Source of the DNA: Anaerolineae bacterium
Lineage (GTDB): Bacteria; Chloroflexota; Anaerolineae; UBA4142; SHND01
Direction: 5' to 3'
Assembly: GCA_020851635.1 (NCBI GenBank)
Contig: JADZCJ010000044.1
Span: 1 to 64,000 of the forward strand
DNA: 64,000 nucleotides
In this document: piece by piece, positions 24,045 to 58,691 of the stretch
Position numbering within the stretch: position 1 is the stretch's first letter
Layout of the letters: every line of letters begins with the position of its first letter
Made by a program: the position numbers and the translations under genes
Notes under the pieces: generated by a model
The model's input: the letters and a program-made list of their open reading frames with translations, nothing else
What the model was told of the DNA's origin: nothing
Database searches by the model: none

Positions 24045-24155
24045 CGTGATGACGAATTTTCCTTTGGACGAACATGCTGCAACAACCGTTGACTGCAATT
24101 GGACGAGTGTGCCGTCGGATTTCCGGCTCAGCGCGCGCGCGATTTCTGTATTGGT

Positions 24156-27052: not shown

Positions 27053-27125
27053 CGGAACATCAATCAAAAGTCAAAAACCAGAAATCAGCAATCATAAATC
27101 AGCAATTACAGACCAGTCTCCAATC
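27053..27125 (+). repeat. A-rich micro-repeat leader before purQ
   Basis: About 70 bases of imperfectly repeated words such as AATCAAAAGTCAAAAAC and AATCAGCAATCA, far more A-rich than the surroundings and without a Shine-Dalgarno sequence. Similar sequence precedes purE, purN and purH. It could be an unstructured ribosome-loading leader. Confidence -1.
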
Positions 27126-28913: not shown

Positions 28914-28932
28914 AAACCGAAAAGCGGAAATC
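28888..28932 (+). repeat. A-rich leader before purE
   Basis: A run of words such as ATCAATCAAAAATCGAAATT overlaps the purC end and fills the gap to purE. There is no Shine-Dalgarno site. It resembles the leaders of purQ, purN and purH. Confidence -1.
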
Positions 28933-29445
28933 ATGAATCCAATGCCCTCTCCTCTCGTTTCCGTCATTATGGGTTCGCGGTCTGATTGGGAAACCATGCA
29001 GCATGCCGCGCAGACTCTCGACACGCTCGGGATCCCGCACGAAACGCGCGTCGTTTCCGCCCACCGCACGGCGGACTTGATGTTTGATTTTGCCGAAAAG
29101 GCAGAGGCGCGCGGGATCCGGGTCATTATCGCGGGAGCGGGCGGCGCGGCACACCTGCCGGGCATGGTCGCATCGAAAACCCTTGTGCCCGTCCTCGGGG
29201 TGCCAGTCCAGTCCAAAACGCTAAACGGGCTGGATTCGCTGCTTTCCATCGTCCAGATGCCCGCGGGTGTTCCCGTCGCCACGTTCGCCATCGGACGCGC
29301 GGGCGCGATCAACTCCGCGCTTTTTGCGGCTGAATTGTTGGGGCTGACGCATCCCGAGATTCGTGCGGCGCTGCGCGCCTATCGAGCCGCGCAGACGCAA
29401 GCCGTGCTGGACCATCCCGACCCGTCCATAGATCAAACCACATGA
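28933..29445 (+). CDS. purE: N5-CAIR mutase
   Basis: A 170-residue class I Pur[31 protein letters not shown] and [17 protein letters not shown] match the active-site loops (Ser, Asp, His). It moves the carboxyl group of N5-CAIR to C4 to give CAIR. It overlaps purK by 4 nt, so PurE and PurK are probably made together. Confidence -1.
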
Positions 29446-33891: not shown

Positions 33892-34949
33892 GTTCCGCGT
33901 ATACCGCAAGCGGCGTCAACATTGATGCGGGCAATCGCGCGGTCGCGTTGATGCGCGAGGCGGTGCAAGCGACCTACAACGCAAACGTGCTGGCGGGCAT
34001 CGGCGCGTTTGGCGGGTTGTTTGATGCGCGCCACATTCAAAAGATGCGCGCCCCCGTGCTCGTCGCCTCGACCGACGGCGTCGGCACCAAAGTCAAAATC
34101 GCCGCGCAGACGAATCGCTATGAAAACATCGGACGCGATCTGGTCAATCACTGTATCAACGATATTCTGGTGCAGGGCGCGCGCCCGCTGTTTTTTCTGG
34201 ATTATATCGCCGCGTCAAAAACAATCCCCGAGCGGGTCGCAGCCATCGTCACAAGCATGGCGGAAGCATGTCGCGAGGCAAACATGGCGCTGCTCGGCGG
34301 CGAAACGGCGGAAATGCCGGACGTGTATCACGAGCAAGAGTTTGATGTGGCGGGGACAATTGTCGGCGTGGTGGAGCGCGACAATGTCCTCCCGCGCTCT
34401 GATTTGCGCGCGGGCGATGTGCTGATCGGACTCGGTTCGACGGGACCCCACACGAACGGGTATTCGCTCCTCCGCAAGATTTTTGCGGACGTGCCGCTCG
34501 ACACGGTGTTTCCCGAAATCGGCGTGCCGCTCGCGGATGCGCTGCTCGCGCCGCATCGCTCCTATTTGTCCGCCCTCGAACATTTTGTCGCGCAGCCGTC
34601 ACCCATCAAGGCGCTCGCGCACATCACGGGCGGCGGCATCATTGAAAATCTGCCGCGCGTTCTGCCCGACCACCTCTCCGCCGACATTCATATCGGTTCC
34701 TGGGACGTGCCGCCGCTCTTTGCTCTCACCCAACAGCGCGGCGATATTCCCACCGCCGAAATGTTTCGCGTATTCAACATGGGGATCGGGATGATCGTCG
34801 TCGTCTCCAAAAACCATGCCGCAGAATTTCAGCGCAATTTGGGGCACGAATCGTTTGTCATTGGCGAGTTGATCGAGGCGGACAGACGAGTGGTCCTGAC
34901 GTCCGACGATAAAGTCAAGCGTGAAACGTCAATCGGCAGTCGCGGCTAG
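33888..34949 (+). CDS. purM: AIR synthetase
   Basis: A 353-residue enzyme closing the imidazole ring of FGAM to give AIR. VASTDGVGTKVKIAAQ, ALLGGETAEMPDVY, TGGGIIENLPRVL and FNMGIGMIVVV are family motifs. The ATG overlaps the purD stop (ATGA). Length is normal. Confidence -1.
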   Translation: MSSAYTASGVNIDAGNRAVALMREAVQATYNANVLAGIGAFGGLFDARHIQKMRAPVLVASTDGVGTKVKIAAQTNRYENIGRDLVNHCINDILVQGARPLFFLDYIAASKTIPERVAAIVTSMAEACREANMALLGGETAEMPDVYHEQEFDVAGTIVGVVERDNVLPRSDLRAGDVLIGLGSTGPHTNGYSLLRKIFADVPLDTVFPEIGVPLADALLAPHRSYLSALEHFVAQPSPIKALAHITGGGIIENLPRVLPDHLSADIHIGSWDVPPLFALTQQRGDIPTAEMFRVFNMGIGMIVVVSKNHAAEFQRNLGHESFVIGELIEADRRVVLTSDDKVKRETSIGSRG

Positions 34950-34964
34950 GCAGCGTCAATCGAA

Positions 34965-35011
34965 AATCGAAACTCGAAAATCACAAATCAGCAATCACAA
35001 ATCAACAATCC
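34965..35011 (+). repeat. A-rich micro-repeat leader before purN
   Basis: Repeated words such as AATCGAAAATCG, AAATCACAAATCAGC and AATCACAAATC fill the purM-purN gap. There is no Shine-Dalgarno site before the purN ATG. Confidence -1.
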
Positions 35012-35012
35012 C

Positions 35013-35600
35013 ATGCCCCGTCTCGTTGTCCTCATTTCCGGTAACGGCTCGAACTTGCAGGCGATTTTGGACGCGTGCGCGAGCAAATCTCTTGATGCGC
35101 GGGTCGTCGCGGTGGTCTCGAACAATCCCGATGCGTTCGGGTTGACGCGGGCGCGCCGTGCGGGTGTGCACGCGGTGCTAAAAACTCGCGACAGGGCACA
35201 GGACCGCCGCGCGTATGATGCGGAACTCGCCGCGCTGGTGGCGTCGTACGAACCCGATTATGTCGTGCTCGCGGGGTGGATGCGAATTCTGTCGTCTGCG
35301 TTTCTGGACCGCTTTCCGAATCGCGTCCTCAACCTCCACCCTGCTCTGCCCGGCGCGTTCCCCGGCGTCCATGCCATCGAGCGCGCGTTTGACGCTTATC
35401 AACGCGGCGAAATCACGCAAACGGGCGTGATGGTCCACCTCGTCCCCGACGAAGGCGTGGATTCCGGTCCCGTGCTCGCGCAAGAGAGCGTTCCCATTGA
35501 GCCCAACGACACGATCGAGGCATTGCAAGCGCGCATCCATCAGGTCGAACATCGCTTGCTGGTGGATACGCTGAGAGGATTGCTGACGGCGGACCGCTGA
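35013..35600 (+). CDS. purN: GAR formyltransferase
   Basis: A 195-residue folate-dependent transformylase. VLISGNGSNLQAI binds the phosphate, AGWMRILSSAFLDRFPNRVLNLHPALPGAFPG contains the catalytic Asn-His and the folate loop, and DEGVDSGPVLAQ holds the catalytic Asp. It adds the C8 formyl group to GAR. Located in the purine operon behind an A-rich leader. Confidence -1.
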   Translation: MPRLVVLISGNGSNLQAILDACASKSLDARVVAVVSNNPDAFGLTRARRAGVHAVLKTRDRAQDRRAYDAELAALVASYEPDYVVLAGWMRILSSAFLDRFPNRVLNLHPALPGAFPGVHAIERAFDAYQRGEITQTGVMVHLVPDEGVDSGPVLAQESVPIEPNDTIEALQARIHQVEHRLLVDTLRGLLTADR

Positions 35601-35636: not shown

Positions 35637-35700
35637 TGTTCCAATCGAAAATCGAGTTTTGAAAATCAAAAATCATCAATCAGAAATCAGAAAGCCACAC
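35637..35700 (+). repeat. A-rich micro-repeat leader before purH
   Basis: Words such as AATCGAAAATCG, AAAATCAAAAATCATC and AATCAGAAATCAG precede purH, in the style seen before purQ, purE and purN. No Shine-Dalgarno site is visible. Confidence -1.
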
Positions 35701-37229: not shown

Positions 37230-37317
37230 TGGGACCGCCAATCTCCTGATTGGCACGCGCGCGCCAATCAGGAGATTGGCGCGCCCAATTCCACCAATCG
37301 GGAGATTGGTGGTCCCA
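37230..37317. repeat. Three RAYT-type palindromes between purH and guaB
   Basis: Three hairpins with 7-bp stems and 4-nt loops stand at 37237-37254, 37263-37280 and 37293-37310. The cores are GCCAATCTCCTGATTGGC, GCCAATCAGGAGATTGGC and ACCAATCGGGAGATTGGT. The outer two are in opposite orientation with flanking TGGGACC and GGTCCCA, so the whole block is also a large imperfect inverted repeat. The third copy has a paired change of both stem ends (G-C to A-T). Confidence -1.
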
Positions 37318-42986: not shown

Positions 42987-43766
42987 ATGAACAATTCTTC
43001 TGGGAACGCCCCTGGGAACGCCAATCTCCCGATTGGCGAAGGGCCGTCAACTAACAACGCCAATGTGGAAATTGGCGGTCCCAGCGGCAATGCCAATCAG
43101 GAGATTGGCGGTCCCAGGGACGGTCCCAGGGACGGTCCCGGGGAGTATTGGCACAGTCGCGGGTATTTGCCACATTTTGAAAGCCCGGACGTGATTCAGC
43201 ATGTCACGTGGCATCTGGCGGACAGTATGCCAAAATCAGCCCTGGATCGTATGACTGACGAGCTCAAACACCTGCCGCCCGACAAGCAGCGCGCCGAACG
43301 ACGCATCCGCATCGAGGCGTGGCTGGACGCCGGTCACGGCGCATGCATTCTCCGCGAACCCTCGCTCGCCCAAATGACTCAAGCTTGCCTCCTCCATTTT
43401 GACGGCGCGCGCTATCGCATGTTGGCATGGGTCGTAATGCCGAACCACGTGCACACCCTGTTCCAACCCCTCAACGGCTGGACGGTCGCCAAAATCGTCG
43501 CATCATGGAAAAAATTCACCGCCCGCCAAATCTCCTCTGGGAACGCCCCTGGGATCGCCAATCTCCCGATTGGCGCTCTTTGGCACCGCGAGTATTATGA
43601 CCGCTTTATCCGCGACGAACGACACTTTCACACCGCGCGGAATTACATTCACCAGAACCCGGTCAAGGCGGGATTGTGCGCGCGGGAAGAGGATTGGGTT
43701 TGGAGCAGCGCGTATGCGGGGGGGAAGGACGCCAATCGGGAGATTGGCGGTCCCAGGGGCAAGTGA
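42987..43766 (+). CDS. REP-associated tyrosine transposase (RAYT, Y1/HUH type)
   Basis: A 259-residue protein. Residues 1-53 are largely translated palindrome copies (NLPIG, NVEIGG, NQEIGG and a Gly-Pro-Arg-Asp repeat). The core starts at EYWHSRGYLPHF. The HUH metal motif is in VVMPNHVHTLF (about residue 155), and YIHQNPVKAGL near residue 216 carries the likely catalytic Tyr. RAYTs cut single strands at REP palindromes and are thought to spread them. A further palindrome (residues 187-200) sits between FTARQI and LWHREYYDRFIRDE, and another forms the C-terminus. The core motifs are intact, so the protein may be active. Confidence -1.
   Translation: MNNSSGNAPGNANLPIGEGPSTNNANVEIGGPSGNANQEIGGPRDGPRDGPGEYWHSRGYLPHFESPDVIQHVTWHLADSMPKSALDRMTDELKHLPPDKQRAERRIRIEAWLDAGHGACILREPSLAQMTQACLLHFDGARYRMLAWVVMPNHVHTLFQPLNGWTVAKIVASWKKFTARQISSGNAPGIANLPIGALWHREYYDRFIRDERHFHTARNYIHQNPVKAGLCAREEDWVWSSAYAGGKDANREIGGPRGK
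43020..43109. repeat. Three palindromes inside the 5' part of the RAYT gene
   Basis: Copies at 43020-43037 (GCCAATCTCCCGATTGGC), 43059-43076 (GCCAATGTGGAAATTGGC) and 43092-43109 (GCCAATCAGGAGATTGGC). The middle copy has lost one stem pair. They are followed by three tandem copies of GGTCCCAGGGAC-like sequence. All are in frame with the transposase. Confidence -1.
43557..43574. repeat. Palindrome inside the RAYT catalytic core
   Basis: GCCAATCTCCCGATTGGC preceded by CCCCTGGGATC. The 5' flank of about 17 bases nearly matches the flank of the copy at 43020, indicating a single larger unit that was copied. It is read in frame as NLPIG. Confidence -1.
43731..43748. repeat. Palindrome at the 3' end of the RAYT gene
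   Basis: GCCAATCGGGAGATTGGC in the opposite orientation, followed by GGTCCCAG. It encodes the last residues of the transposase, ending 15 nt before the stop codon. Confidence -1.
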
Positions 43767-43899: not shown

Positions 43900-46680
43900 A
43901 TGCCCTCTCGCAAATCCTCTCCCAAAAAGAAAACGTCAACAGCAAAACATAAATCAGCGCCCGCGCGCGTGACGCGCAACGTGATCGGCGGACACAGTCA
44001 CGTCGCGTGCGCGGACTTTGTCGGCGGCGACAAGCGCACGATCAATTACGGTTTTACCCCCAGAGACGTCGAGCGGCTGATTGTCAAGGTGCTTGCCTTT
44101 TTGGAACGCGGCGCGGCGTTTCTGCCGGACGAACGCCAGCGTGAGGTATTGCGCGCACAGGTGGATGGTGAGACGCTCACTTTTCATGCGGGCGCGGCGC
44201 TGAAATTGTGGGGCCGGCGAGATGAACGCTCCTATCTCCTCTCCCTGACGGTGCGGCGCGAGTACCAGATGTGGGCGACCAAGTTCATTCCACTTGCCGC
44301 GCGGGTAGACGCCAAGCGGGATATTCAGGCACTGGATATGCCGGTGCAGTTTAGCGAATTTCGCGTGCCGCGCGGAGGTTCCGACGCATTGGCGCAAGTC
44401 ACATTTGAGCCGCTCCCCGACATTACCGAGGCGCTGGACCGGCACAGCGCCTTTGTGATTCTGGGGGAGCCGGGCGCAGGCAAGACCACGACGCTGCAAA
44501 AGATCGCTTTCGAAGCCGCGCGCCGTCTGCTGGCAACGGGTGATGGGCGCGTGCCGTTGTTTGTGCGGTTGAGCGAGCAAAGCAATCGTGAGCCGTTCGA
44601 ATTTTTGCGCGACGAATGGGAACGCCACACCGGTTCCGATTTCGCCGATGCATTGGCGGCGGGGCGTGTGTTGGTCCTTGCGGATGGAATCAACGAGCTG
44701 CCGCGCGAAGGACGCCTCAAGGCCTGGCGCCTGTTTGCCCTGGACCAAGCCGAAGCGAATCGAATCGTCTTTACGGGTCGCGAACGCGATTATGACCGCC
44801 AACTTTATTTGCCGCGCGTGCGTGTCGAACCGCTCGACGAGGCGCGCATCGCAGACTATTTGGAACGGAACGATGCCGGAGGGCTGGCGGCGCTGCTCGA
44901 CGATCCAAACACGCGTCTGCGCGAGATGGCGGGCAATCCGTTCAATCTCGCCCTGCTGGTGGCTGCGTATCGAGATAATCAGCGCGACATGGCGAATCGC
45001 GGGCGTCTCATGGAATGGTTTGTGGACGAATTATTCAAGCGCGAAGAAAAGTTAGAGCACCGCGACTGGCTGCATCGCGACGTGCAGACGCGTGCCCTCG
45101 CCCAACTCGCGTATGCGATGCAGGAACAGGGGGAGGGCACGACTCTATGGCTCCGCACCGCGCCGGCGCTCTTGCCGCAATCGGTGGAACACGCCGGCCA
45201 GGACGTGCCCGTCAAACCGGCTGACCTGTTTCGTTGCGCCCGCGCGGCGACGCTGCTTGACCCCGCGACCGACCCGAAGGACATTCGCTTTTATCATCAC
45301 CTGTTGCAGGAATACTTTGCCGCTCTCGACCTCTTGCGGCGATATGATAAAGGGGAGGACTTGTCCGGCTTGTGGCGCGCCAAACGACTCGCCGACGAGA
45401 TGCCGCCCGCTGACGTTGGGGAATGGGATGCCCTGCCTGAACCGCCCGCGACGGGTTGGGAGGTCACGACCATCCTTGCGTGTGGGCTGGCAAAGGACCC
45501 CGCGCGGTTGATCGAGACCATCCGTCCCCTCAATTCCGTCCTCGCGGGTCGCTGTCTGGACGAGAGTGGGATTGACAAGCCAATCGCGGTCACCAACAGC
45601 GTGCGCGCCGACCTGTTGTCAGACCTCAACAACCCGGCAATTCATCTGCGCGCGCGCTTGCAGGCGGGCTATACGCTCGGGCGAATTGACGACCCGCGTT
45701 TTGTTCCACAACTCTTTAACGGCGTCAAGGTGATTGTGCCGGTGATGGCGCCTGTGCCGCCGGGCGAGTATCACATCGGCAGCGCGGACGATGATCAAAA
45801 CGCTGATGACGACGAAAAACCACAACACACGGTTTCCATCCCGGCTTTTGAAATCGGACGCTATCCCGTGACGAACGCAGAATTTGCCTGTTTTATTAAA
45901 GCGGACGGATACAAACAAGACAAATATTGGGAGACCGATTTGGCAAAGCGTTGGCTACAGGGTGAAGATGTCACCGGGGGGCAATTCGGGGCATGGCTCG
46001 ATGAATGGCGCTGGATGCAAGATACTTTTGATTGGAAAGAACGACACGAACGAAGCGGGAATTATTCGCCCGACGAAATCAAGACGTTGGAATATATCGC
46101 AAGCTTGAGTGAAGACGAATTGAGACGGGTTGTGACATCTCAACTCGGCCAAAAATCGCGCGAGCACCCGCACTATTGGGACGACGCGCAGTACAATAAC
46201 GCGTCCCAACCCGTCGTCGGCATCACGTGGTTTGAGGCGCGCGCCTACTGCGCGTGGCTCACCGAGATGACGGGCAAGTGGTATCGCCTGCCGACCGAAG
46301 CGGAATGGGAAGCGGCGGCGCGTGGGAAACAAGCTCACATATACGCGTGGGGCGACGACTGGGACGCGACGAAAGCAAACACGATTGAAGGGCGCGTGTT
46401 GAAACCTTCGCCCGTCGGCGTGTATGATGCGGTGGCTCCAAGTCCTTTTGGGACGTCTGACCAAACCGGGAATGTTTGGGATTGGACGAGCACGCTCCAT
46501 CAGCCGTATCCGTATGCCATAGATGACCGTGAGGATGAAAATGCGGGTGGTGAACGCGTCGTGCGCGGCGGGTCGTTCCCCGATTTTCGTATCTATGCTC
46601 GCTGTGCGAATCGTGGCAGGGACGCACCCGTCAATTTCTACTACAATTTGTGTTTTCGGGTGTTGTCCCCTGGCTCATAG
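43900..46680 (+). CDS. NACHT-NTPase with C-terminal FGE/C-type-lectin domain, DGR target protein
   Basis: A 926-residue protein. Residues 1-30 are basic; 30-70 contain VIGGHSHVACADFVGGD, a glycine-rich segment. The NACHT NTPase follows, with Walker A GEPGAGKTTT (about 189-198), Walker B VLVLADGINEL, and a helical region to about 600. Residues 620-926 are an FGE-sulfatase/C-type-lectin domain: PPGEYHIGSADDD, GRYPVTNAEFACF, YRLPTEAEWEAAARG and NVWDWTST. The end, VVRGGSF...ARCANR...CFRVLS, is the usual diversified region of DGR target proteins. An RT gene follows. Such proteins are proposed defence or conflict sensors in which the lectin-like domain binds variable ligands. Confidence -1.
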   Translation: MPSRKSSPKKKTSTAKHKSAPARVTRNVIGGHSHVACADFVGGDKRTINYGFTPRDVERLIVKVLAFLERGAAFLPDERQREVLRAQVDGETLTFHAGAALKLWGRRDERSYLLSLTVRREYQMWATKFIPLAARVDAKRDIQALDMPVQFSEFRVPRGGSDALAQVTFEPLPDITEALDRHSAFVILGEPGAGKTTTLQKIAFEAARRLLATGDGRVPLFVRLSEQSNREPFEFLRDEWERHTGSDFADALAAGRVLVLADGINELPREGRLKAWRLFALDQAEANRIVFTGRERDYDRQLYLPRVRVEPLDEARIADYLERNDAGGLAALLDDPNTRLREMAGNPFNLALLVAAYRDNQRDMANRGRLMEWFVDELFKREEKLEHRDWLHRDVQTRALAQLAYAMQEQGEGTTLWLRTAPALLPQSVEHAGQDVPVKPADLFRCARAATLLDPATDPKDIRFYHHLLQEYFAALDLLRRYDKGEDLSGLWRAKRLADEMPPADVGEWDALPEPPATGWEVTTILACGLAKDPARLIETIRPLNSVLAGRCLDESGIDKPIAVTNSVRADLLSDLNNPAIHLRARLQAGYTLGRIDDPRFVPQLFNGVKVIVPVMAPVPPGEYHIGSADDDQNADDDEKPQHTVSIPAFEIGRYPVTNAEFACFIKADGYKQDKYWETDLAKRWLQGEDVTGGQFGAWLDEWRWMQDTFDWKERHERSGNYSPDEIKTLEYIASLSEDELRRVVTSQLGQKSREHPHYWDDAQYNNASQPVVGITWFEARAYCAWLTEMTGKWYRLPTEAEWEAAARGKQAHIYAWGDDWDATKANTIEGRVLKPSPVGVYDAVAPSPFGTSDQTGNVWDWTSTLHQPYPYAIDDREDENAGGERVVRGGSFPDFRIYARCANRGRDAPVNFYYNLCFRVLSPGS
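46561..46677 (+). other. Putative DGR variable region (VR)
   Basis: The 3' end of the NACHT gene encodes RGGSF-PDFRIY-ARCANR-GRDAPVNFYYN-LCFRV. In DGR-diversified FGE domains the residues between the conserved RGGS, RCA-R and FRV blocks arise from template AAC/AAT codons; here they are mixed (Asp, Phe, Arg, Ile, Tyr, Gly, Val, Asn), as expected of a mutagenised VR. Boundaries are approximate because no template was found. Confidence -1.
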
Positions 46681-46737
46681 TCCTGCTTTCTGGCTCCTGA
46701 ACTCTGGTTTCTGCAGTTCTGCAATCCTGCGGGGGGT

Positions 46738-46760
46738 GCAGGGGGGCTGTGCCCCCCTGC
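46738..46760 (+). repeat. GC-rich hairpin downstream of the VR
   Basis: GCAGGGGGGC and GCCCCCCTGC form a perfect 10-bp stem with a TGT loop, 58 nt after the target gene. DGRs often have a hairpin or cruciform shortly downstream of VR that promotes retrohoming; this may be that element. Between the stop codon and the hairpin is a TTTCTGG-like micro-repeat. Confidence -1.
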
Positions 46761-46797
46761 CGAACGCGCGAAAAATTTTTTACAGGAGGTGACGACC

Positions 46798-47883
46798 ATC
46801 AAGACGTTCAAACATTTGTATCCTCAAATCACCGCGTTCGAGAACCTGTATCGCGCGTTCAGGGGCGCAGCGCGCGGCAAGCGCAGTCATCCCGATGTGG
46901 CAGCGTTCGAGTATGACCTGGAACAAAATCTGGTGCGCCTGCAAATGGAACTGCAAGCGCAATCCTATCGCCCCGGCGCGTATCACAATTTCCAGATTCA
47001 AGACCCCAAGCCCCGACTCATTTCTGCCGCTCCTTTCCGCGACCGCGTCGTCCACCATGCGCTGTGCCAAATCATCGAACCGATTTTCGAACGGCGTTTT
47101 ATCTCGGATTCGTATGCGTGCCGCAAGCGCAAGGGCACGCATGCCGCGGTCAACCGCGCCCAGCAGTTTGCGCGCCGGTATCGCTATGTCCTGAAATGCG
47201 ACATCGAGCACTTTTTCCCCCGCATTGACCATGCGATATTGCGCGCCGAAATCGCCCGCCGGATTGCGGATGGGGATGCGATGAACATGGTTGACCTGAT
47301 CCTCGCAAGCGGGCAGTCGGTGCACCGCGACGAGCCGCCCGTCTGGTTCGAGGGCGACGACCTGTTTGCCGCGCTCCGCCCGCGCGGTCTGCCCATCGGC
47401 AATCTCACTTCCCAGTTTTGGGCGAATGTATATCTCAATCCGCTCGACCAATTTATCAAGCGCGAACTGAAATGTCACGGCTATGTGCGCTATGTGGATG
47501 ATTTCCTGCTCTTTTCCGACGACAAGGCGACTCTGCACGAATGGCGCGCCAGGGTGATTGCGTTTGCGGCGGCGCTTCGTCAGCGTCTGCATGAAAATGA
47601 ATCGGTTGTGTTTCCCACCCGGACAGGAATTCCCTTTCTCGGCTGGCGCGTGTATCCCGACCACCGGCGGCTGAAGCGGCGCAACGGCGTCCGGTTTGCG
47701 CGGCGGCTCGCGCTCTTGTGCGGGCAGTTGGAACGCGGCGAGATTCCGCTCGAAAGGGTTGCCGTTTCGGTGAATGGCTGGCTCGCGCATGTCCGGCATG
47801 GCGACACGTGGGGCTTGCGGCGCGCGCTCTTGTCACGCGTGGTCATGCCGCGTCCTATCCCGGTCAAAAGCGAGACATCATGA
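46798..47883 (+). CDS. DGR reverse transcriptase
   Basis: About 361 residues. The N-terminus KTFKHLYPQITAFENLYRAF matches DGR RTs. GLPIGNLTSQFWANVYLN (from 47386) is the DGR-type motif 4, RYVDDFLLF (YVDD at 47491-47502) is the catalytic site, and a thumb-like C-terminus follows. It copies a template RNA with adenine-specific errors to diversify the target. The conserved start position is ATC at 46798, five nt after a perfect AGGAGGTGA Shine-Dalgarno sequence. GTG at 46789 is in frame but overlaps the Shine-Dalgarno itself. Expression may be weak or lost. Confidence -1.
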   Translation: MKTFKHLYPQITAFENLYRAFRGAARGKRSHPDVAAFEYDLEQNLVRLQMELQAQSYRPGAYHNFQIQDPKPRLISAAPFRDRVVHHALCQIIEPIFERRFISDSYACRKRKGTHAAVNRAQQFARRYRYVLKCDIEHFFPRIDHAILRAEIARRIADGDAMNMVDLILASGQSVHRDEPPVWFEGDDLFAALRPRGLPIGNLTSQFWANVYLNPLDQFIKRELKCHGYVRYVDDFLLFSDDKATLHEWRARVIAFAAALRQRLHENESVVFPTRTGIPFLGWRVYPDHRRLKRRNGVRFARRLALLCGQLERGEIPLERVAVSVNGWLAHVRHGDTWGLRRALLSRVVMPRPIPVKSETS

Positions 47884-48116
47884 ACCAATCACCGATTTTC
47901 TCCAAGACCTATGATTTCGTCGCGTGGCTCATCCCGCTGACGTGCAAATTCCCACGGCAGCACCGCTTTGTCATGGCAGCCGCGTTACAGCGCGATACTC
48001 TGCGCTTTCAGGAACTGCTCAAAGCCAAATATCAAACCCGACCCATTCCCTCCGGTAGTTTCCTTCCTCCAATAAAGGCGGGAATCGAACGTTGGAATGG
48101 GTCGCTTCTCTCTTGA
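47880..48116 (+). CDS. Truncated Avd (DGR accessory variability determinant)
   Basis: A 78-residue protein starting in the RT stop codon (ATGA overlap). SPIFSKTYDFVAWLIPLTCKFP and QRDTLRFQELLKAKY match the first two helices of Avd, the four-helix-bundle partner that binds the RT and template RNA. Normal Avd is about 110-130 residues. The last 28 residues (from about TRPIPSG) do not look like helices three and four, and I find no continuation in other frames. Probably C-terminally truncated and inactive. Confidence -1.
   Translation: MNQSPIFSKTYDFVAWLIPLTCKFPRQHRFVMAAALQRDTLRFQELLKAKYQTRPIPSGSFLPPIKAGIERWNGSLLS
48039..48104 (+). repeat. 11-bp inverted repeat at the broken end of avd
   Basis: CGACCCATTCC (48039-48049) and GGAATGGGTCG (48094-48104) are perfect reverse complements flanking 44 nt. 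They coincide with the point where similarity to Avd ends, so they may mark the insertion or deletion that truncated the gene. Confidence -1.
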
Positions 48117-50918: not shown

Positions 50919-52412
50919 ATGAACATTTTTGAGCGCATGACCAATCGCGTTTTCGGTTCCCGCATCCAAGCGTTGGTGAGCGCGCGGGTCAATCTCGCGG
51001 TGGCGGCGCGCGACGATCTGCGCGACCGACAGTGGGGCGCGAACCCGACACGCCAGGACCGCTATGCGTGGAAACGCGCCGACGTGCTGCGCGATGCGTT
51101 CACCGCCTGGCGCGAGAACCCGTTGGCGCGGCGCATCGTGGGCTTGACGAGTCAATACGTGGTCGGCGGCGGGCTGGCGGTCTCGTCGGACGACGCGGCG
51201 ACGAATGATTTTTTGCAGGAATGGTGGACGCACCGTCTGAACCGCATGACGATTCGCGCGTTCGAATGGTGCGACGAACTCACGCGGGCGGGCGAATTGT
51301 TTGTCGTGATTTCGACGGACGCGGGCGGGATGTCGTATGTGCGGGCGATTCCGGCGAGCGAGATCCAAGAGATCGAGACCGCGCCGAATGATATCGAGCA
51401 GGAACAAGCCTTTATTCAAAAGCCACAAGCGGGCGACCGGGACCCGACGCGCTGGCACGCGTATGACGAGCTGAGCGATGGGAGCGCCAATCTCCCGATT
51501 GGCGGAAGCGATGGGAGCGCCAATCTCCCGATTGGCGGAAGCGATGGGAGCGCCAATCTCCCGATTGGCGGACCCGGCTTGGGCGACGTGATGCTGCATT
51601 ACGCCATCAATCGGCCGGTGGGCGCGAAATTTGGCGAAAGCGACCTTGCCCCGCTCTTGAAATGGCTGGCGCGCTATGGGGCGTGGCTGGAAGACCGGGC
51701 GCGGCTCAACAAGTATCGCCAAACTTTTCTCTATTGGGTCAAAAAACCGTTCCGCGACAGCGCCGAACGTCTGGCGCGCCAGAGCGAGCTGAACGCCAAC
51801 CCGCCCAATCCCGGCACCATTTTTGTGACCAACGACGACGAGGAATGGTCGGTCATACACCCCAAACTCGACTCGTTCGAGGCGGGCGAGGACGGGCTGG
51901 CGATGAAAAAGACGATTGCGGCGGGCGCGGGCGTGCCCCTGCATTTTCTCGCCGAGCCCGAATCGTCCACGCGCACCACCGCCGAACAGGCGGGCGGTCC
52001 CACCTTTCGCCATTTCGAACAGCGCCAGATCTTTTTTCTCTGGATGCTGACCGACCTCGCGCGCATCGTCGTGCGCCGCGCCGCCGCCGCGGGACGGCAG
52101 GGAATTTCCGTTGACTCGGACCTCAAGGCGCGCGGCACGGACATTTTCTCGCGCGACAACGCAAACCTCGCGGCTTCCGCCTCCGCCATCATCGAGGGCT
52201 TTGGAATGCTGCGCGACCGCGGGCTGATTGACGACGCCGAATACGTGCGGCTCGCCTATCGCTTTGCAGGTGAGGTGGTGGACGTGGCAAAAATCCTCGC
52301 GGATGGAAAAAAAGCGGGCGCGACGACCACCGGCAAAAAAATCGGCAAGATTGGCGCGGACAGCGCGGCAACCGTGCCGACGGCGGGTGAGATCGCCAGG
52401 AGAGACGGGTGA
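50919..52412 (+). CDS. Phage portal protein
   Basis: About 497 residues. The N-terminus has RWAARAARDDLRDRQ-like helix content, then NPLARRIVGLTSQYVVGGG, a typical portal wing region. YVRAIPASEIQEIETAPND, then MLHYAINRPVGAKFGESDLAPLL and a long stem-clip helix region follow, ending in EYVRLAYRFAGEVVDV. Related to lambda/HK97-type portals. Residues 189-216 (three copies of DGSANLPIGGS) come from in-frame palindromes and are absent from what such proteins normally contain. The ATG at 50919 follows a GAGG site. It sits between terminase and capsid genes, as usual. Confidence -1.
   Translation: MNIFERMTNRVFGSRIQALVSARVNLAVAARDDLRDRQWGANPTRQDRYAWKRADVLRDAFTAWRENPLARRIVGLTSQYVVGGGLAVSSDDAATNDFLQEWWTHRLNRMTIRAFEWCDELTRAGELFVVISTDAGGMSYVRAIPASEIQEIETAPNDIEQEQAFIQKPQAGDRDPTRWHAYDELSDGSANLPIGGSDGSANLPIGGSDGSANLPIGGPGLGDVMLHYAINRPVGAKFGESDLAPLLKWLARYGAWLEDRARLNKYRQTFLYWVKKPFRDSAERLARQSELNANPPNPGTIFVTNDDEEWSVIHPKLDSFEAGEDGLAMKKTIAAGAGVPLHFLAEPESSTRTTAEQAGGPTFRHFEQRQIFFLWMLTDLARIVVRRAAAAGRQGISVDSDLKARGTDIFSRDNANLAASASAIIEGFGMLRDRGLIDDAEYVRLAYRFAGEVVDVAKILADGKKAGATTTGKKIGKIGADSAATVPTAGEIARRDG
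51486..51569. repeat. Three tandem palindromes within the portal gene
   Basis: Identical cores GCCAATCTCCCGATTGGC at 51486-51503, 51519-51536 and 51552-51569, with a 33-bp period. Each unit adds 11 residues and preserves the frame. They are in the same orientation, unlike the purH-guaB copies. Confidence -1.
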
Positions 52413-52479: not shown

Positions 52480-54552
52480 ATGGAGGAGCGAACACAATTG
52501 CGCGCGAACGCGACGCCGAACGCGCAGGGTTTGTTTGAGGTGGTGCTGATTACGGCGGGGCAAGGCAACGGGTGGAATTTTTCGGCGCAGGTGCTCGAGG
52601 ATTCCGTCAAGCTGTGGGACGGGTGCGAGTGTTTTGTGGACCACGCTGGCGCGATGCAGGGCGGGCAGTCGCTGCGAAACCTGTGCGGCGTGTTTTATGA
52701 CGTGACGTTTGACGAACAGGTCGGCGGCGTCAGGGCGAAACTCAAAACACTCGGTCCGTCGGGTCCGCTGGCGGCGCAGTTGGGCAAGGAATGGCTCGCC
52801 GAGCAAGAGCCGCGTCCCGCGGTGGGTTTTTCGGCGGACATTGGATTTATTGCGTCGAGTACGACGCCGTCGAATACGACGCACGCGCAGGGGCGCGAGG
52901 TGCTCCAGATCACGCGCGTGTACTCGTGCGACATGGTGTTTGAACCCGCGCGCGGCGGGACGTTCGTCCGCGCGCTGAATGGCACCCCTGGGATCGCCGT
53001 TCTCCCGAACGGCACTCTCTCCGGAACCACCATTCAGCACAAACCAAACGGCGGCGCAAGCTGCCACGATTCACAGGAGGCAAACATGGACCCAAAACCA
53101 CTGCGCCAGCTTGGGCCTGACGCAGATCAAAGCATTGGAAAAGGCGCGAACGCGACAGAGCAAACCCCGCTCGCGTACAGCGCAGAGCAAGCGCACAAGA
53201 TGCGCGCACAAATGTGCGCCTATCTGTTGGATGCGGGCTTGAACGCATCCGCGCTGCCGCAAGCGGTGCAGGAACGCATCCGCAAACAGTTCGCGGGGCA
53301 GGTTTTTGAACCGCAAGCGCTTCAAAGCGAAATTGACGATGCGCGGGCGATGGTGAGCCAGCTGACGGGCGGCGCGGCAGTCGCGGGGTTGCGCACGGCG
53401 GTTGCGGGCATGTTCAATTCGGACGATCAACTGCGGCTGGCGGTGGAAGATTTGCTCGGGGTCGAGCGGGACGAAAAGGAAAAGGGGCTCAAGGTCGCGC
53501 GGCTGAGCGGCATCAAAGAGCTCTACATGGGCATGCAGGGCGATTTTGACCTGTATGGCGGTTTCTATCCCGAACGGGCGCGCTTTCAGCACACGACTAC
53601 CACGTTTGCGGGTCTGGTCAAAAACGCGCTCAACAAGGCGGTTGTGCGCCATTGGAACCAGCTCGGACGCGCCGGCTATGACTGGTGGACCAAGATCGCG
53701 CACGTCGAACATTTCGAGTCCATCAACCAGATCACCTGGGTGATTTTCGGCACGATTGCCTCGCTCCCCACAGTCGCCGAGGGCGGCGAATACACCGAAC
53801 TCAAAATCGCCGACTCGCCGGAAACGTCCAGCTTTACCAAATACGGCGGCTATGTGGGCATCACGCTCGAAGCGATTGACCGCGATGATACGCGCAAATT
53901 ACGCATGGTGCCGCGTGAACTGGCGAGCGCGGGGATTCGCAACATCTCGTCGCTGGTCGCCGCCCTCTTTACCTCCAATTCAGGCGTGGGTCCGACCCTG
54001 GCGGACGGCGGCGCGCTTTTCAACAACACGGCGGTCACGACGGCGGGGGGTCACGCAAACCTGTTGACAACGGCGCTCGGCACCGATTACACGGCGTGGG
54101 ATGCGGCAGCCAAAGCCATGTTCAATCAGCCGCTGTTGGTGGCGAATGAATCGGGCTATTACGGGGCGGGCAGCAAAATGGCGCTTGACCCGAAATACTG
54201 TCTCGTCCCGCGCGCCCTCAAAGCGCAAGCGGAAGCGTTGTTCATGCCGCGCTGGGCTTCGAGCGTGGACAGCATCGCGAGCGCGGGCGGTCCCACCTAT
54301 GGCGGACACGTCGTCCCCATCACCGTCCCCGAATGGACCGACGCAAACGACTGGGCGGCGGTGGCGGACCCGCTGTTGGCGCCGGGTGTGTGCATCGGCG
54401 AGCGTTTTGGGCTGCTCCCCGAAGTCTTTATCGCGGGCGACGAGACCGACCCTGCCATGTTGGCGAATGACGAGTCGCGCATCAAGGTGCGGCATTTTAT
54501 CGCCGTCGGCGTCGCCGATTTTCGACCGCTCCACAAATCCAACGTCACATAA
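52480..54552 (+). CDS. Fused prohead protease-major capsid protein
   Basis: About 690 residues. Residues 1-170 resemble a phage prohead protease: ATPNAQGLFEVVLITAGQGNG, ECFVDHAGAM with a candidate catalytic His, and PAVGFSADIGF with a candidate Ser. Residues 180-330 are helical and scaffold-like. Residues 340-690 resemble an HK97-fold capsid: FPERARFQHTTTTFAGL, YGGYVGITLEAIDRDD, ALDPKYCLVPRAL and VHFIAVGVADFRPL. The start at 52480 has a strong GGAGG site. An internal ATG at 53086 also has one. One palindrome sits at the protease-scaffold junction. Usually the two functions are separate genes. Confidence -1.
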   Translation: MEERTQLRANATPNAQGLFEVVLITAGQGNGWNFSAQVLEDSVKLWDGCECFVDHAGAMQGGQSLRNLCGVFYDVTFDEQVGGVRAKLKTLGPSGPLAAQLGKEWLAEQEPRPAVGFSADIGFIASSTTPSNTTHAQGREVLQITRVYSCDMVFEPARGGTFVRALNGTPGIAVLPNGTLSGTTIQHKPNGGASCHDSQEANMDPKPLRQLGPDADQSIGKGANATEQTPLAYSAEQAHKMRAQMCAYLLDAGLNASALPQAVQERIRKQFAGQVFEPQALQSEIDDARAMVSQLTGGAAVAGLRTAVAGMFNSDDQLRLAVEDLLGVERDEKEKGLKVARLSGIKELYMGMQGDFDLYGGFYPERARFQHTTTTFAGLVKNALNKAVVRHWNQLGRAGYDWWTKIAHVEHFESINQITWVIFGTIASLPTVAEGGEYTELKIADSPETSSFTKYGGYVGITLEAIDRDDTRKLRMVPRELASAGIRNISSLVAALFTSNSGVGPTLADGGALFNNTAVTTAGGHANLLTTALGTDYTAWDAAAKAMFNQPLLVANESGYYGAGSKMALDPKYCLVPRALKAQAEALFMPRWASSVDSIASAGGPTYGGHVVPITVPEWTDANDWAAVADPLLAPGVCIGERFGLLPEVFIAGDETDPAMLANDESRIKVRHFIAVGVADFRPLHKSNVT
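52996..53013. repeat. Palindrome variant in the protease-capsid gene
   Basis: GCCGTTCTCCCGAACGGC: stem and loop as in the RAYT copies but with two stem pairs changed on both sides (AAT/ATT to GTT/AAC), so it still pairs. The 5' flank CCCCTGGGATC is identical to the RAYT copy at 43557. Confidence -1.
53075..53088 (+). promoter_or_regulatory. Internal ribosome-binding site and start in the protease-capsid gene
   Basis: AGGAGG (53075-53080), five nt, then ATG at 53086 in the same frame (MDPKPLRQLGPD). It allows a separate product lacking the protease domain, as in the nested lambda C-Nu3 arrangement. Confidence -1.
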
Positions 54553-54556
54553 TTTT

Positions 54557-54584
54557 GCGACACGCATTATTTCGCGACACGCAT
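54557..54584 (+). repeat. 11-bp direct repeat after the capsid gene
   Basis: GCGACACGCAT occurs at 54557 and 54574. The 100-nt gap around it is made of imperfectly repeated short words and contains no gene. Confidence -1.
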
Positions 54585-54652
54585 AGCAAAACGCAGAGCA
54601 CAGAATACAGAGCTTTTCTGTCATCTGTTATCCGCACAAGGAATGAATCTCA

Positions 54653-55285
54653 ATGAACGAATCTCTTTTGAGCGGCGTGTTTCTCACCGTCGCATCGCTT
54701 GTCGGTCTTTTGGTCTTGGTCGTCATCGTCCCGCAGTGGGAACAGGTCCGCAACTGGGCGCGTTCGCTTGCAGGCGAGACCGGCGGTTACGTTCACGACA
54801 CCGGCGCGAGCCAATGGATTGACCCCGCCCTGATCGCCAAAAGCGCAGGCACCTGGACACCCACCTACTCGACCAACAAAATTTTTCATCGGCGCACGGC
54901 GGGCGATGCGACCTTCAACCTGTTTATTCCCGTGGTCGTCAAATCCAACAGCTCATCGCAAAAAGGCGCTTATCTCAAGAGCATTGATGTTTTTTACAAC
55001 GTCACCAACGCGCTCGATGACCTCGCCACCGTTGAACTAAACAAGCAATCGCTCTCATCCGTCGGCGCGCACACGGCGGGGGCTGTCACGACTACGCTTG
55101 ACAGCGGGCACGACTCGGCCGCCGAACGCAAAGCTGCGGGCGAGCACAAGATGACCGTCACCCTCGCTACCCCCGCCTGGGTGGACGACGACGAATCTTA
55201 CGTGCTCTATATGGTGTGCGACGCTGCCGCAACCAGCGTATTTGATCTCGTCGGCGCGCGGGCAAACTACACCCTGCGGGTGTAA
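54653..55285 (+). CDS. Phage-module protein with N-terminal membrane helix
   Basis: A 210-residue protein. Residues 8-26 are strongly hydrophobic (VFLTVASLVGLLVLVVIV), then a beta-rich domain (GDATFNLFIPVVVKSNSS, KSIDVFYNVTNALDDL, HKMTVTLATPAWVDD). The domain could be a jelly-roll-like surface protein with a membrane anchor, which is unusual for a virion structural gene. No family recognised. It has a weak AAGGAATG site. Confidence -1.
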   Translation: MNESLLSGVFLTVASLVGLLVLVVIVPQWEQVRNWARSLAGETGGYVHDTGASQWIDPALIAKSAGTWTPTYSTNKIFHRRTAGDATFNLFIPVVVKSNSSSQKGAYLKSIDVFYNVTNALDDLATVELNKQSLSSVGAHTAGAVTTTLDSGHDSAAERKAAGEHKMTVTLATPAWVDDDESYVLYMVCDAAATSVFDLVGARANYTLRV

Positions 55286-55350
55286 CACGCGGCGGGAGGT
55301 CACAGGCAGATGTTCGCGCTTGTCATGTGACCTCTCGCCCCACATAAACG

Positions 55351-55665
55351 ATGGAGATTTCTGCAACCGAAATGGCGTGTTTTATCTATCACGTTTCGCA
55401 AAACGAAATTCTCGCGGCGACGCTGTGTCCGGATGGCGGTTTGGCGGTGGTGATTGACCGGGGCATTCAGAGCGCGCCAAAATATGCGCTGACACGAGAT
55501 GAAACAGAACAAGCGATGGCGCGCTATTCTGCGCGCGCCGCGCGATGGCGCGCTATTCTGCGCGCGCCGCGCGCCGTGAACTGGCGGCAGCGACGGACAA
55601 AACACAACCCGCGACCGGGACGCGGGCAAGCAGAACAAAAAAAGGAGCATGAGCCATGCCGCTGA
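55351..55665 (+). CDS. Small protein of unknown function with internal tandem duplication
   Basis: A 104-residue protein. The first 55 residues (ACFIYHVSQNEILAATLCPDGG) look like a small folded domain. A 29-bp tandem repeat (55513-55570) shifts the reading frame between copies. The Arg-rich C-terminal part is therefore not conserved-looking. It overlaps the next start. Function unknown. Confidence -1.
   Translation: MEISATEMACFIYHVSQNEILAATLCPDGGLAVVIDRGIQSAPKYALTRDETEQAMARYSARAARWRAILRAPRAVNWRQRRTKHNPRPGRGQAEQKKEHEPCR
55513..55570 (+). repeat. 29-bp tandem duplication
   Basis: Two direct copies of a 29-bp unit starting GCGATGGCGCGCTATTCTGC. The length is not a multiple of three, so the duplication moves the coding frame. 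Confidence -1.
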
Positions 55666-56363
55666 CGCTGGCACAATACGAAACACAAATATCCGCGCTC
55701 TTGATGGACCCGACCAACGCGGTGTTTTCGACCGCGGTGATTGATGCGGCGGTCCGTCAGGCGTTGGGCGATTACACCCAGGCGAATCCGCTGACGACCG
55801 AAACCGTGATCGCGCTGCCGGGAGTCGGTCGCGAGATTGCGCTAAACGGAGTGAGCGGACTGATTCAGGTGACCGATGTGTGGTGGCCCTATGATTCGAG
55901 CGCAGCATCAGAAACCTGGCCCCGCAATGATCCGCTTGGGTTTCGGCTCTGGTGGGATGACGGCGCGCCGGTCCTGTTTCTGAATTCGCGCGAGGGGGCG
56001 CAACCGCAGCAAAATGACGAAATTCGCGTTTTCTATGCCAAAGCGCACACGATTCAGGACCTGGACCGGGCCGCGGCGACAACGCCCCTGCCCGCCCACG
56101 AATACATGCTTGTGCGCGGCGCGGCAGGGCTGGCATGTATCGGGCGCGCGGCTGATTTGAACGAAACTTCTTCGAACATGGCGGTCTCGACGCCCAACTA
56201 TGCGGCATTGGGCAAGCTCTTTTTGTTCGGAGACGAATTTGATCTGGGGTTTTACCCCTGGCTCGCGCTCTTGAGAACGCAGGGACAGGTGCGAGGGGAT
56301 GCATTTCCGCGAGCGGGCTGGAAGTTGGACAAATACGATGCGCTGACAGGGTGGGCAAGTTAA
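55656..56363 (+). CDS. Putative phage head-tail connector protein
   Basis: A 235-residue protein. The N-terminus (LAQYETQISALLMDPTNAVFSTAVIDAAVRQALGDYTQ) is a helical repeat typical of phage head-completion or connector proteins that sit below the portal. A beta segment (TVIALPGVGREIALNG) and the ending AGWKLDKYDALTGWAS follow. Location after the capsid gene agrees. I cannot name the family. The start overlaps the previous gene, and it ends directly before the next ATG. Confidence -1.
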   Translation: MPLTLAQYETQISALLMDPTNAVFSTAVIDAAVRQALGDYTQANPLTTETVIALPGVGREIALNGVSGLIQVTDVWWPYDSSAASETWPRNDPLGFRLWWDDGAPVLFLNSREGAQPQQNDEIRVFYAKAHTIQDLDRAAATTPLPAHEYMLVRGAAGLACIGRAADLNETSSNMAVSTPNYAALGKLFLFGDEFDLGFYPWLALLRTQGQVRGDAFPRAGWKLDKYDALTGWAS

Positions 56364-57290
56364 ATGTCGCGCAACTTGAAACGCCCCTCGCGCGACGCTC
56401 GCCGCCGAAAAACGACGGACGATTTTGTGCGCGTCTCGCGGGCGACCATCGGTCTCGTCCACGCTTACATCATCAAGGTCGGCACGGCAATCCTCGGCGG
56501 CGACCTAACCGGCAACGCACGCGGTCAATATGCGATTGACATCCAAACCGACCGTCTACCGGACGCGGGCGGCGAAACGCAGGTCGCAAGCGGCGATTAT
56601 GCCGTGCAGCTCGGCGCGCTCAACACGGTGACGGGCGACTATGGCGTCCGGGTGGGTTACGGCGGCGCGGTCTCGGGTTTGTCGGGTGTCGGCATCGGCA
56701 GCAACGCAAATGCAGAGGGTGAAGCGGCGGTCTCCATCGGACTGAATGCTTATGCCGGCGCGCAAGATTCGATTGCAATCGGCGGCGCGACAGTTTTCAC
56801 AGAGGGCGCATTGGGCATCGGGGCGACTGCGAAACTGCTAAACGCGGGATATGTCCTCAATACCGGCGTCGCGCCCATCGTCAAACGCGCGGCAGGTCTG
56901 GCGGCAGAGGCGAACTGGTCCCGCCATCTCGCGGGAGCATTGTCCGTTTTCACCAGTGGACTGATTGACCTGACAAGCACGGGGTTATACACGCTGGCTC
57001 TGCCCGCCGGGTGCAAAATCTGGCTCGCGGCGCTCGGTATCGTCGCCGTGAGCTGGGACAATGTGACCGTCCAACCGACTGTGCGATTCGGCGCAACCTT
57101 TGACGATACAAAATACGTCGCCGACCGCATCACCACACAACTAACGACTGCAGCCAAGCGCGAGCACTATCTGCCCGAAACGCTCAGCGATTTCGAGACC
57201 AGTCCAAATTTCACGGTTGTCACCGGCGCAACCGCAACCACCATGACCGCGCGCGTCTATTGGGTTGGGTTGTTGTTGGAGGATGAGTAA
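56364..57290 (+). CDS. Phage structural protein with YadA-head-like repeats
   Basis: A 308-residue protein. A basic N-terminus is followed by residues 75-150 with repeats of the form GxxAxAxG-x-SxAxG: GVGIGSNANAEGEAAVSIGLNA and GAQDSIAIGGATVFTEGALGIGA. These match the left-handed beta-roll of trimeric adhesin (YadA) heads. A C-terminal domain (IDLTSTGLYTLALPAGCK, VTVQPTVRFG) is beta-rich. Probably a trimeric fibre that binds the host surface. Phage tail fibres and bacterial adhesins share such repeats. Confidence -1.
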   Translation: MSRNLKRPSRDARRRKTTDDFVRVSRATIGLVHAYIIKVGTAILGGDLTGNARGQYAIDIQTDRLPDAGGETQVASGDYAVQLGALNTVTGDYGVRVGYGGAVSGLSGVGIGSNANAEGEAAVSIGLNAYAGAQDSIAIGGATVFTEGALGIGATAKLLNAGYVLNTGVAPIVKRAAGLAAEANWSRHLAGALSVFTSGLIDLTSTGLYTLALPAGCKIWLAALGIVAVSWDNVTVQPTVRFGATFDDTKYVADRITTQLTTAAKREHYLPETLSDFETSPNFTVVTGATATTMTARVYWVGLLLEDE

Positions 57291-57291
57291 T

Positions 57292-57332
57292 GTTTTCACC
57301 TACGGTGAAAACATTCGTTTTGCTCCGCAAAA
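57292..57332 (+). repeat. Two consecutive hairpins between fibre genes
   Basis: GTTTTCACC-TAC-GGTGAAAAC (extended by flanking AT and T) and GTTTTGC-TCC-GCAAAAC follow each other in the 48-nt gap. They could be processing or stability elements for the mRNA. Confidence -1.
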
Positions 57333-57338
57333 CAAATA

Positions 57339-58226
57339 ATGTCAAACTTCAAACTCGCCGACAATGTGAACGTCCTCACCGATTTCACCGACGGCTATAC
57401 CGTCTATGACGCGCGCTACGCCCTCGCATCACATACCCACACCGCGCCGGATCACGGCGCGCTGTCCGGTCTCACGGACGACGACCATTCACAATACGCC
57501 CTACTCGCCGGACGTTCGGGCGGGCAAACTCTCATCGGCGGCACCGCGTCGGGCGATGACCTCACCCTGCAATCCACAAACCACGCGACCAAAGGTTCAA
57601 TTTTCTTTGGCGCGGCGGGCAACAGTTTTTATGATGAGGTCAACGACCGATGGGGGTTGGGACATTCGTCCGTTGGCTCGGGGTATGCCGTGCGCGCGTC
57701 GCAGAGCATCATGGTAGATTCATCTACCAACAATTCGGGTTTTGTCGCGCGTTTTACGGGATCATCGAGTTCGGGCGTCGGACCGCAAAACGGGTTTGTG
57801 ACGAACGACGGTGCGGCGATGGCAAGCGCAGACCGCATCGGCGCATTTCTGTTCAACGGCTATGACGGTTCGGCGGAAGTCCTCGGCGCCGCAATGCTCG
57901 TACAGACCACGCAGGCGTGGAGCACGACGGCGCGCGGCACAAAAATCACGTTCTACACCACGCCCAACAGCACAACCACACTCACCGCCGGACTCGTCCT
58001 CGAACAGGATGGCACCGCCACCATCACCAACAATGCCAACGTCGGGGGCGAATACCGCGTGGACAATACGCGCGTCGTCACCAACCGCGTGACCGGCTGG
58101 GCCGCCGCAAGCGGCACCGCATCCCGCGCCACGTTCGCCACCGGCACCGTGACGACCGCACAGCTCGCCCAGCGCGTCAAAGCATTGATCGACGACCTGA
58201 TGACGCACGGACTCATCGGAACCTAA
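57339..58226 (+). CDS. Phage tail-fibre/spike-type protein
   Basis: A 295-residue protein. Residues 15-60 have the pattern YDARYALASHTHTAPDHGALSGLTDDDHSQYALLAGR, common in phage tail fibres. Low-complexity beta repeats follow (TLIGGTASGDDLTLQS, SGFVARFTGSSSSG) and a C-terminal helix (AQLAQRVKALIDDLMTHG) that could trimerise. No enzymatic or chaperone domain is visible. Together with the preceding fibre it would mediate adsorption. Confidence -1.
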   Translation: MSNFKLADNVNVLTDFTDGYTVYDARYALASHTHTAPDHGALSGLTDDDHSQYALLAGRSGGQTLIGGTASGDDLTLQSTNHATKGSIFFGAAGNSFYDEVNDRWGLGHSSVGSGYAVRASQSIMVDSSTNNSGFVARFTGSSSSGVGPQNGFVTNDGAAMASADRIGAFLFNGYDGSAEVLGAAMLVQTTQAWSTTARGTKITFYTTPNSTTTLTAGLVLEQDGTATITNNANVGGEYRVDNTRVVTNRVTGWAAASGTASRATFATGTVTTAQLAQRVKALIDDLMTHGLIGT

Positions 58227-58238
58227 CACCCTGGGACC

Positions 58239-58272
58239 GCAAATTTCCCAATTTGCGCCATTTCCCAATTTG
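58239..58272. repeat. Variant palindromes after the tail-fibre gene
   Basis: GCAAATTTCCCAATTTGC (58239-58256), preceded by CTGGGACC, keeps the stem-loop but has another set of paired changes. A degenerate second copy follows directly. They lie between the fibre stop and the next start, with flank CTGGGACC as in other copies. Confidence -1.
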
Positions 58273-58286
58273 CGCCCTTGACACCC

Positions 58287-58551: not shown

Positions 58552-58617
58552 CGCTCTGCACGTCGAGATGCAGGTCTGATTCGATTGTTGCGAGGGTGCT
58601 GCATCTGACGATGCGAG

Positions 58618-58691
58618 CGGAAGTGACGGGGCTCGAACCCGCGATCTCGGCCTTGACAGGGCCGCGTGTTAACCGGCTACACCACACCTCC
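58618..58691 (-). tRNA. tRNA-Asp (GTC)
   Basis: On the minus strand the 74-nt sequence folds into a complete cloverleaf: acceptor GGAGGTG/CACTTCC, anticodon stem GGCC/GGCC with loop CTGTCAA (anticodon GTC) and T-arm GGGTTCGAGCCCC-like. The discriminator is G and no CCA is encoded. Its 3' end faces the end of the phage module. Confidence -1.

Follow-up and report, generated by a model that had tools for sequence, protein, structure and literature searches.

Previously, assays of the group-3 TnpAREP enzymes, which act on repetitive extragenic palindromic (REP) elements, have shown that cleavage is affected or almost abolished when the stem contains a mismatch, that block changes of the stem letters have a lesser effect, and that the loop bases are critical (PMC8266576). 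A GA spacer and the coevolution of REPs with REP-associated tyrosine transposases (RAYTs) have also been described, and REPs usually number more than 100 copies per genome (PMC2817692). Subclass 2.4 TnpAREP genes carry REPs in frame inside the gene (PMC6006769). Furthermore, most families of GTAG repeats, a group drawn also from Chloroflexi and Verrucomicrobia, contain sub-families with alternative complementary stem residues (PMC3733652), and compensatory changes have been called common in REPIN hairpins (PMC3116915). The present study concerns positions 1 to 64,000 of contig JADZCJ010000044.1 from an Anaerolineae bacterium (assembly GCA_020851635.1), hereafter the window, in which a RAYT gene (42987-43766) lies among short hairpins. 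Judged by their sequence, these hairpins are the REP elements of that gene. Their stems covary beyond chance, and support for a constraint on the fold comes both from a test across the genome and from other genomes.

The RAYT frame, 259 codons long and lengthened at its 5′ side through REPs, scored 88.9 bits against NF047646 (REP-associated tyrosine transposase; cut-off 80) and 38.7 against PF01797 (Y1_Tnp; cut-off 23). Among solved structures at E <= 0.01 it matched only 4er8, TnpArep (E 4.4e-5), and no other gene of the 5.8-Mb genome matched PF01797. The NHVH motif (NHLH in one) and the tyrosine of Y-[IMV]-x-x-NPV, which we take to be the catalytic residues, are kept in 12 of 12 aligned RAYT sequences; the window protein reads NHVH and YIHQNPV. 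Inverted REPs flank the gene, with one plus-strand and two minus-strand copies on the 5′ side and one minus-strand copy on the 3′ side (Table 1). REPs at the internal site between the HUH and Tyr parts are shared with the RAYT of one other genome, G340 (identity 65% over query residues 5-148 and 57% over 144-198), and are absent from 10 other relatives. The G340 frame (L136:2063-3196, 377 aa) has an N-side extension that is a REP array of 69-bp period read as protein. We file the system as REP/RAYT with a deviating head because the enzyme, the arrangement and the repeat form agree with that class, whereas the GTAG/GTGG head does not.

Twelve copies in the window are built from a TGGGA (or TGGGC) head, a single free base, a stem of 7-8 bp and a TCC(C/T) loop; one more copy has the loop TCCA. 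Their common stem, GCCAATC/GATTGGC, is the reference for all stem changes described here. A first-pass annotation of this DNA had singled out two divergent hairpins, in the capsid gene and on the fibre side, together with the third purH-guaB copy, and had claimed that every change on one arm is matched on the other. Both hairpin sequences it quoted are exact, at 52996-53013 and 58239-58256, and for the copies it named the claim stands. Specifically, two pairs are replaced in the capsid copy (A-T>G-C and A-T>T-A) and two in the fibre-side copy (C-G>A-T and C-G>T-A), all matched arm to arm and with the TCCC loop kept, and the minus-strand purH-guaB copy has one matched change, G-C>A-T. Folded as single-stranded DNA, the capsid and fibre-side copies each form the stated hairpin (z about -3.2). 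The fibre-side copy, although it does differ from the common stem at two pairs, is a member of a 12-copy subfamily and no lone divergent copy. Part of this REP (ATTTCCCAATTTGCGCC) is duplicated once in tandem 3′ of it (58239-58273).

Copies were sought throughout the genome, a draft of 144 contigs in which the RAYT contig is denoted C44. The search model, R1, scores sequence and ignores pairing; therefore, pairing itself was unable to raise a copy's score. It was built on an alignment (A1) of 31 sequences, namely 30 of 35 seed rows and the copy at 43058-43083. The five seed rows excluded were a chance match, a duplicate and three tandem copies identical to one another. R1 gave 63 matches at E <= 1, dispersed as REPs are, of which 58 are complete on both arms. 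Five rows were dropped: a contig end truncates one, in two the next unit starts in place of the right arm, and two are weak (E 0.21 and 0.74) with no recognisable right arm. Some copies form inverted pairs (C23:35807/35842), and many are singles or lie in tandem arrays. CTGGGA is the commonest form of the head (39 of 58 copies); the base before TGG is C in 53 copies and G in one, which reads GCGGGG. Over the seven inner pairs of the 58 copies, 393 of 406 cells are Watson-Crick, the rest comprising one T-G and 12 mismatches; 47 copies are perfect (47 of 62 when the last four dropped rows are counted as unpaired). Fifteen distinct stems occur, seven of them paired (17, 13, 12, 2, 1, 1 and 1 copies) and eight imperfect (2, 2 and 2 copies and five singles).

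The changes that separate these stems are paired far beyond chance. In A1, six of the eight pairs change on both sides. The covariation score was 0.280, against 0.094 for shuffled alignments, none of 500 attaining it, and no more than 0.059 for slid versions of the structure; on five of five measures the named structure exceeded all 500 shuffles, and it exceeded every slid version. The genome-wide covariation test of the stem positions, which the first-pass annotation had proposed, points the same way. The minimum spanning tree holds 22 site changes, including five one-step paired replacements and two two-step ones with surviving intermediates (pair 8, C-G>T-G>T-A via C84:40938; pair 2, G-C>C-C>C-G in the array C44:116133-116215). 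When the same numbers of changes were placed at random, one-step paired replacements averaged 0.28, with a maximum of 3 in 20,000 runs. Moreover, four of the seven paired stems and none of the eight imperfect ones occur at two or more separate places (Fisher P 0.026). This contrast is weak evidence, because the imperfect copies may simply be young.

Several observations weigh against the reading of the hairpins as REPs whose pairing is kept. The remaining events in the tree are unpaired (six single breaks and one unpaired double change), and the outermost pair, C-G in 26 of the 58 copies, is broken in the other 32, among them the capsid copy (C.A beyond its 7-bp core). The copy at 43058-43083 on the minus strand, which adjoins the RAYT gene itself, has a T.C mismatch at the loop-closing pair. 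Hence, across the family, the claim that every change is matched fails. The R1 seeds were taken with a pairing filter of at least 5 of 8 pairs. In addition, 150 of 4190 first-look candidates were scored with R1, and therefore very degenerate copies may be missed, which would lift the unpaired share. The confinement of imperfect stems may reflect their youth and nothing more, and the own-genome copies do not have the classical GTAG/GTGG head. The first-pass annotation had named unpaired stem changes as frequent as paired ones as the outcome that would speak against it. By plain count this is what we see, seven events of each kind; however, parity is the wrong yardstick, since chance yields about 0.28 one-step paired replacements.

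A further point on the same side is that this pattern could be obtained from mutation without selection. In template switching during replication (quasi-palindrome correction), the chief rival account of how the pairs arise, one arm is copied onto the other; both members of a pair would then change in a single event and persist with no selection for the fold. For five of the seven replacements no intermediate survives, two adjacent pairs differ together in the capsid copy, and the covariation test used cannot separate selection from correction. We nevertheless hold template switching to be a possible but rather unlikely cause, as two replacements retain an unpaired or wobble intermediate, the dispersed stems are those that pair, and correction leaves unexplained why head and loop are conserved across genomes in which the stem varies. 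The first-pass step from covariation to selection for the fold is supported as far as a fold constraint goes; selection as its cause is another matter, since an arm-copying mutation could match it.

The capsid copy calls for separate consideration, as every other copy in the window scores higher with R1 (22.8 bits for the capsid copy) and its stem occurs once. Could it be a chance palindrome in coding DNA? With same-left-arm copies left out of training it still scored 21.3 bits, whereas the best of 20 Markov 64-kb sequences reached 16.9 (for the fibre-side copy the corresponding values were 40.1 and 14.9). Over 34 nt it shares 85% identity with the REP located within the RAYT gene. Besides, it occupies a linker in the protease-capsid frame that differs in 18 of 18 distinct homologs aligned (19 rows from 20 loci, one record supplying two of the rows). 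A chance origin is, on these grounds, highly improbable.

At E <= 1e-10, 39 of 149 genomes (own genome included) contain a relative of the RAYT. Relatives were also found in 9 of 17 genomes picked mostly by REP content (E <= 1e-8) and in five named records, four of which are Verrucomicrobia. The exact TGGGA...TCC form gave proper matches at the window locus alone, with one chance-like match at L041 and none at the other relatives' RAYT loci; therefore, a looser head (GGA) was needed. Eleven relative RAYT loci were then searched with the head, a GC at the left base and the loop start required and the right arm free. Eight of the 11 loci gave 35 matches, of which 28 have a perfect right arm (13 stems) and seven have 4 to 6 of 7 pairs; the reversed text gave no match. 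Among the loci without such a match, L044 has hairpins of another base with the loop TCC or TCCT, and L072 and L073 have paired hairpins with other loops. One relative, L071, has the head GTGG-GA. Class-wide, at least 150 matches exist, and among the 150 listed, none of them from the own genome, 21 are perfect with nine stems, against a mean of 0.745 and a maximum of 4 for shuffled right parts. Pooling gave 40 distinct rows, 22 of them perfect, with 245 paired cells out of 280, compared with a mean of 140.5 for shuffled arms. In the own genome and in relatives alike, the stem letters are free and the pairing is kept. The REP family itself was found in none of five congeners and, among 12 genomes searched together, only in G340 (11 matches, 10 of them on its RAYT contig). 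Pairing of the head with the loop (GGGA with TCCC), as a kissing contact or cleavage guide, was set aside because head and loop showed no covariation: relatives with a constant GGA have the loop TCC, TCT, GCCA or ATT.

The exact common REP also occurs in four viral contigs. One viral contig, L197 (IMGVR_UViG_3300010379_001560), carries four REPs with four stems, all perfect, beside portal and capsid relatives (L197:6923-7252). With the right arm left free, 14 of 17 matches in the four contigs were perfect, although these contigs owe their selection to an exact match with a single paired stem. The four paired stems of L197, together with the location of the capsid copy in a phage gene, would suit an origin of the divergent stems as separate REP families from different phages or hosts. 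We consider such an origin unlikely. The capsid stem was found in none of the viral contigs and, among 400 genomes of the phylum sample (own genome included), only in its own. The own-genome stems lie one pair apart with a common head and loop, two of them via intermediates, and the pairing constraint would hold even if the families were separate.

As reasons for a constrained fold, the first-pass annotation had offered a single-stranded transposase substrate and an RNA structure. In the latter case, a fold acting in mRNA stability, attenuation or termination would keep the hairpin at each site. Such roles have been ascribed to REPs elsewhere, and GT pairing is taken as a hint of RNA function in a survey of GTAG repeats (PMC3733652). 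However, G-T wobble makes up only 1 of the 13 non-Watson-Crick cells, both orientations occur in one spacer (37230 on the plus strand; 37262 and 37292 on the minus strand), and copies lie inside coding frames. An Rfam search gave no match except a tRNA. The RNA explanation, for which we found no specific support, is thus very unlikely, and the transposase substrate is the better of the two, the RAYT gene lying among the copies.

Very probably, then, the hairpins have spread through the action of the RAYT, an enzyme that would read head, hairpin shape and loop and leave the stem letters nearly free so long as they are complementary. A REP exposed as single-stranded DNA would fold to a hairpin of 7-8 bp, in which the RAYT would recognise (C)TGGGA as the unpaired head, together with the TCC(C/T) loop and the shape of the hairpin. 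By cutting and rejoining the strand, the enzyme, presumed active, would let copies move into spacers and tolerant protein linkers, whether one at a time, as inverted pairs or through subsequent tandem duplication. The stem letters would hardly be read, and complementarity alone would count. A copy with a stem mutation would be used less, and would regain its use through a second mutation that matches the first. Selection presumably acts at the spreading step, such that the stems that pair would be the ones that spread, giving rise to subfamilies with paired replacements. The constancy of head and loop beside a free but complementary stem fits an enzyme reading a folded single strand. Covariation first spotted by eye has now been counted; like the in-vitro results for other RAYTs, it places complementarity over letters. 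Moreover, a head and loop that stay near constant across distant genomes while the stem is free offer a natural mutation set for recognition studies.

The distribution of the copies gives a lead on where this spread takes place. The stem that flanks the RAYT gene, GCCAATC, has 14 of its 17 copies on C44 (five of seven three-kilobase bins), a contig that makes up 4.2% of the genome (binomial P 2.5e-6). By contrast, copies with the GCAAATC or GCAAATT stem are spread out, 2 of 25 being on C44. That copies spread mostly near their own RAYT gene is nonetheless quite unlikely to be the right reading and serves only as a lead, because the genome is a draft of unordered contigs. If true, a paired stem change would mark the switch from local to genome-wide spread, and each stem would be its own lineage.

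None of the 24 homologs spanning the site has the triple REP insertion of the portal gene (27 of 39 loci yielded a homolog). The in-frame REPs in the phage portal and capsid genes indicate that REPs also enter viral structural genes at tolerant linkers. These genes belong to a phage block (46789-58691) with a terminase, a portal, a protease-capsid fusion and a tail-needle-like match, which ends near a tRNA-Asp (58617-58691). The region at 43900-48116 encodes a 926-aa NACHT and FGE-sulfatase-fold protein, then a reverse transcriptase (46789-47883, PF00078) and a weak Avd match (47718-48116, phrog_3206). In appearance it is a diversity-generating element that adjoins phage genes; a short, quick alignment gave no template/variable repeat pair near 46-48 kb. 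Elsewhere in the window, a tandem repeat with an 18-bp unit like CATCACACAATACGTGAT lies at 23943-24050. A/T-rich repeats of about 14-bp period like AAATCAGCAATCAC, which are unlike the REPs, lie at 27054-27122, 28893-28947, 34943-35025 and 35642-35696.

Table 1. The RAYT gene and REP copies of the window
Feature	Position	Strand	Family or structure match
purH-guaB REP 1, stem GCCAATC/GATTGGC, loop TCCT	37230..37254	+	
purH-guaB REP 2, loop TCCT, head TGGGC	37262..37287	-	
purH-guaB REP 3, paired change G-C>A-T, ACCAATC/GATTGGT	37292..37317	-	
RAYT gene (REP-associated tyrosine transposase, HUH/Y1 family), one REP inside	42987..43766	+	NF047646, PF01797, 4er8
REP at 5′ end of RAYT frame, stem GCCAATC/GATTGGC, loop TCCC	43013..43038	+	
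REP with unpaired loop-closing change, GCCAATT / CATTGGC, loop TCCA	43058..43083	-	
REP, stem GCCAATC/GATTGGC, loop TCCT	43092..43116	-	
REP in frame inside RAYT gene, between HUH and Tyr parts	43550..43575	+	
REP, inverted, 3′ end of RAYT gene	43730..43755	-	
Three tandem REPs, 33-bp period, in frame in phage portal gene, SDGSANLPIGG x3	51479..51570	+	
Capsid-gene REP, stem GCCGTTC/GAACGGC, in linker between protease and capsid parts of one frame	52989..53013	+	
Fibre-side REP, stem GCAAATT/AATTTGC, just 3′ of gene ending at 58226	58232..58257	+	

Like the group 3 'REPtrons' of Stenotrophomonas and Marinomonas, the window system combines a short perfect hairpin with an unpaired 5′ head and REPs that flank the gene, and in our reading of it, as in theirs, loop bases and complementarity outweigh stem letters (PMC8266576). 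In contrast to them, its head is (C)TGGGA and not GTAG/GTGG, its loop is TCC(C/T), and it is known from sequence. The REPs of Pseudomonas and Xanthomonas (GTAG-1; GT(A/G)G, GA and palindrome) resemble those of the window in the order of TGG, GA, one base and palindrome; the first head base, mostly C here, is G there, and stems and loop differ. The copy number in the own genome also falls below the usual figure of PMC2817692. The window gene and its G340 relative each have an in-frame REP between the HUH and Tyr parts, a feature that likens the enzyme to subclass 2.4 TnpAREP (PMC6006769). The covariation is of the kind seen in the GTAG sub-families, where it is given as consensus codes, whereas here it is counted with a null (PMC3733652). 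Thus, the REP/RAYT class and its complementary stem sub-families were known already, and what is new here is the host.

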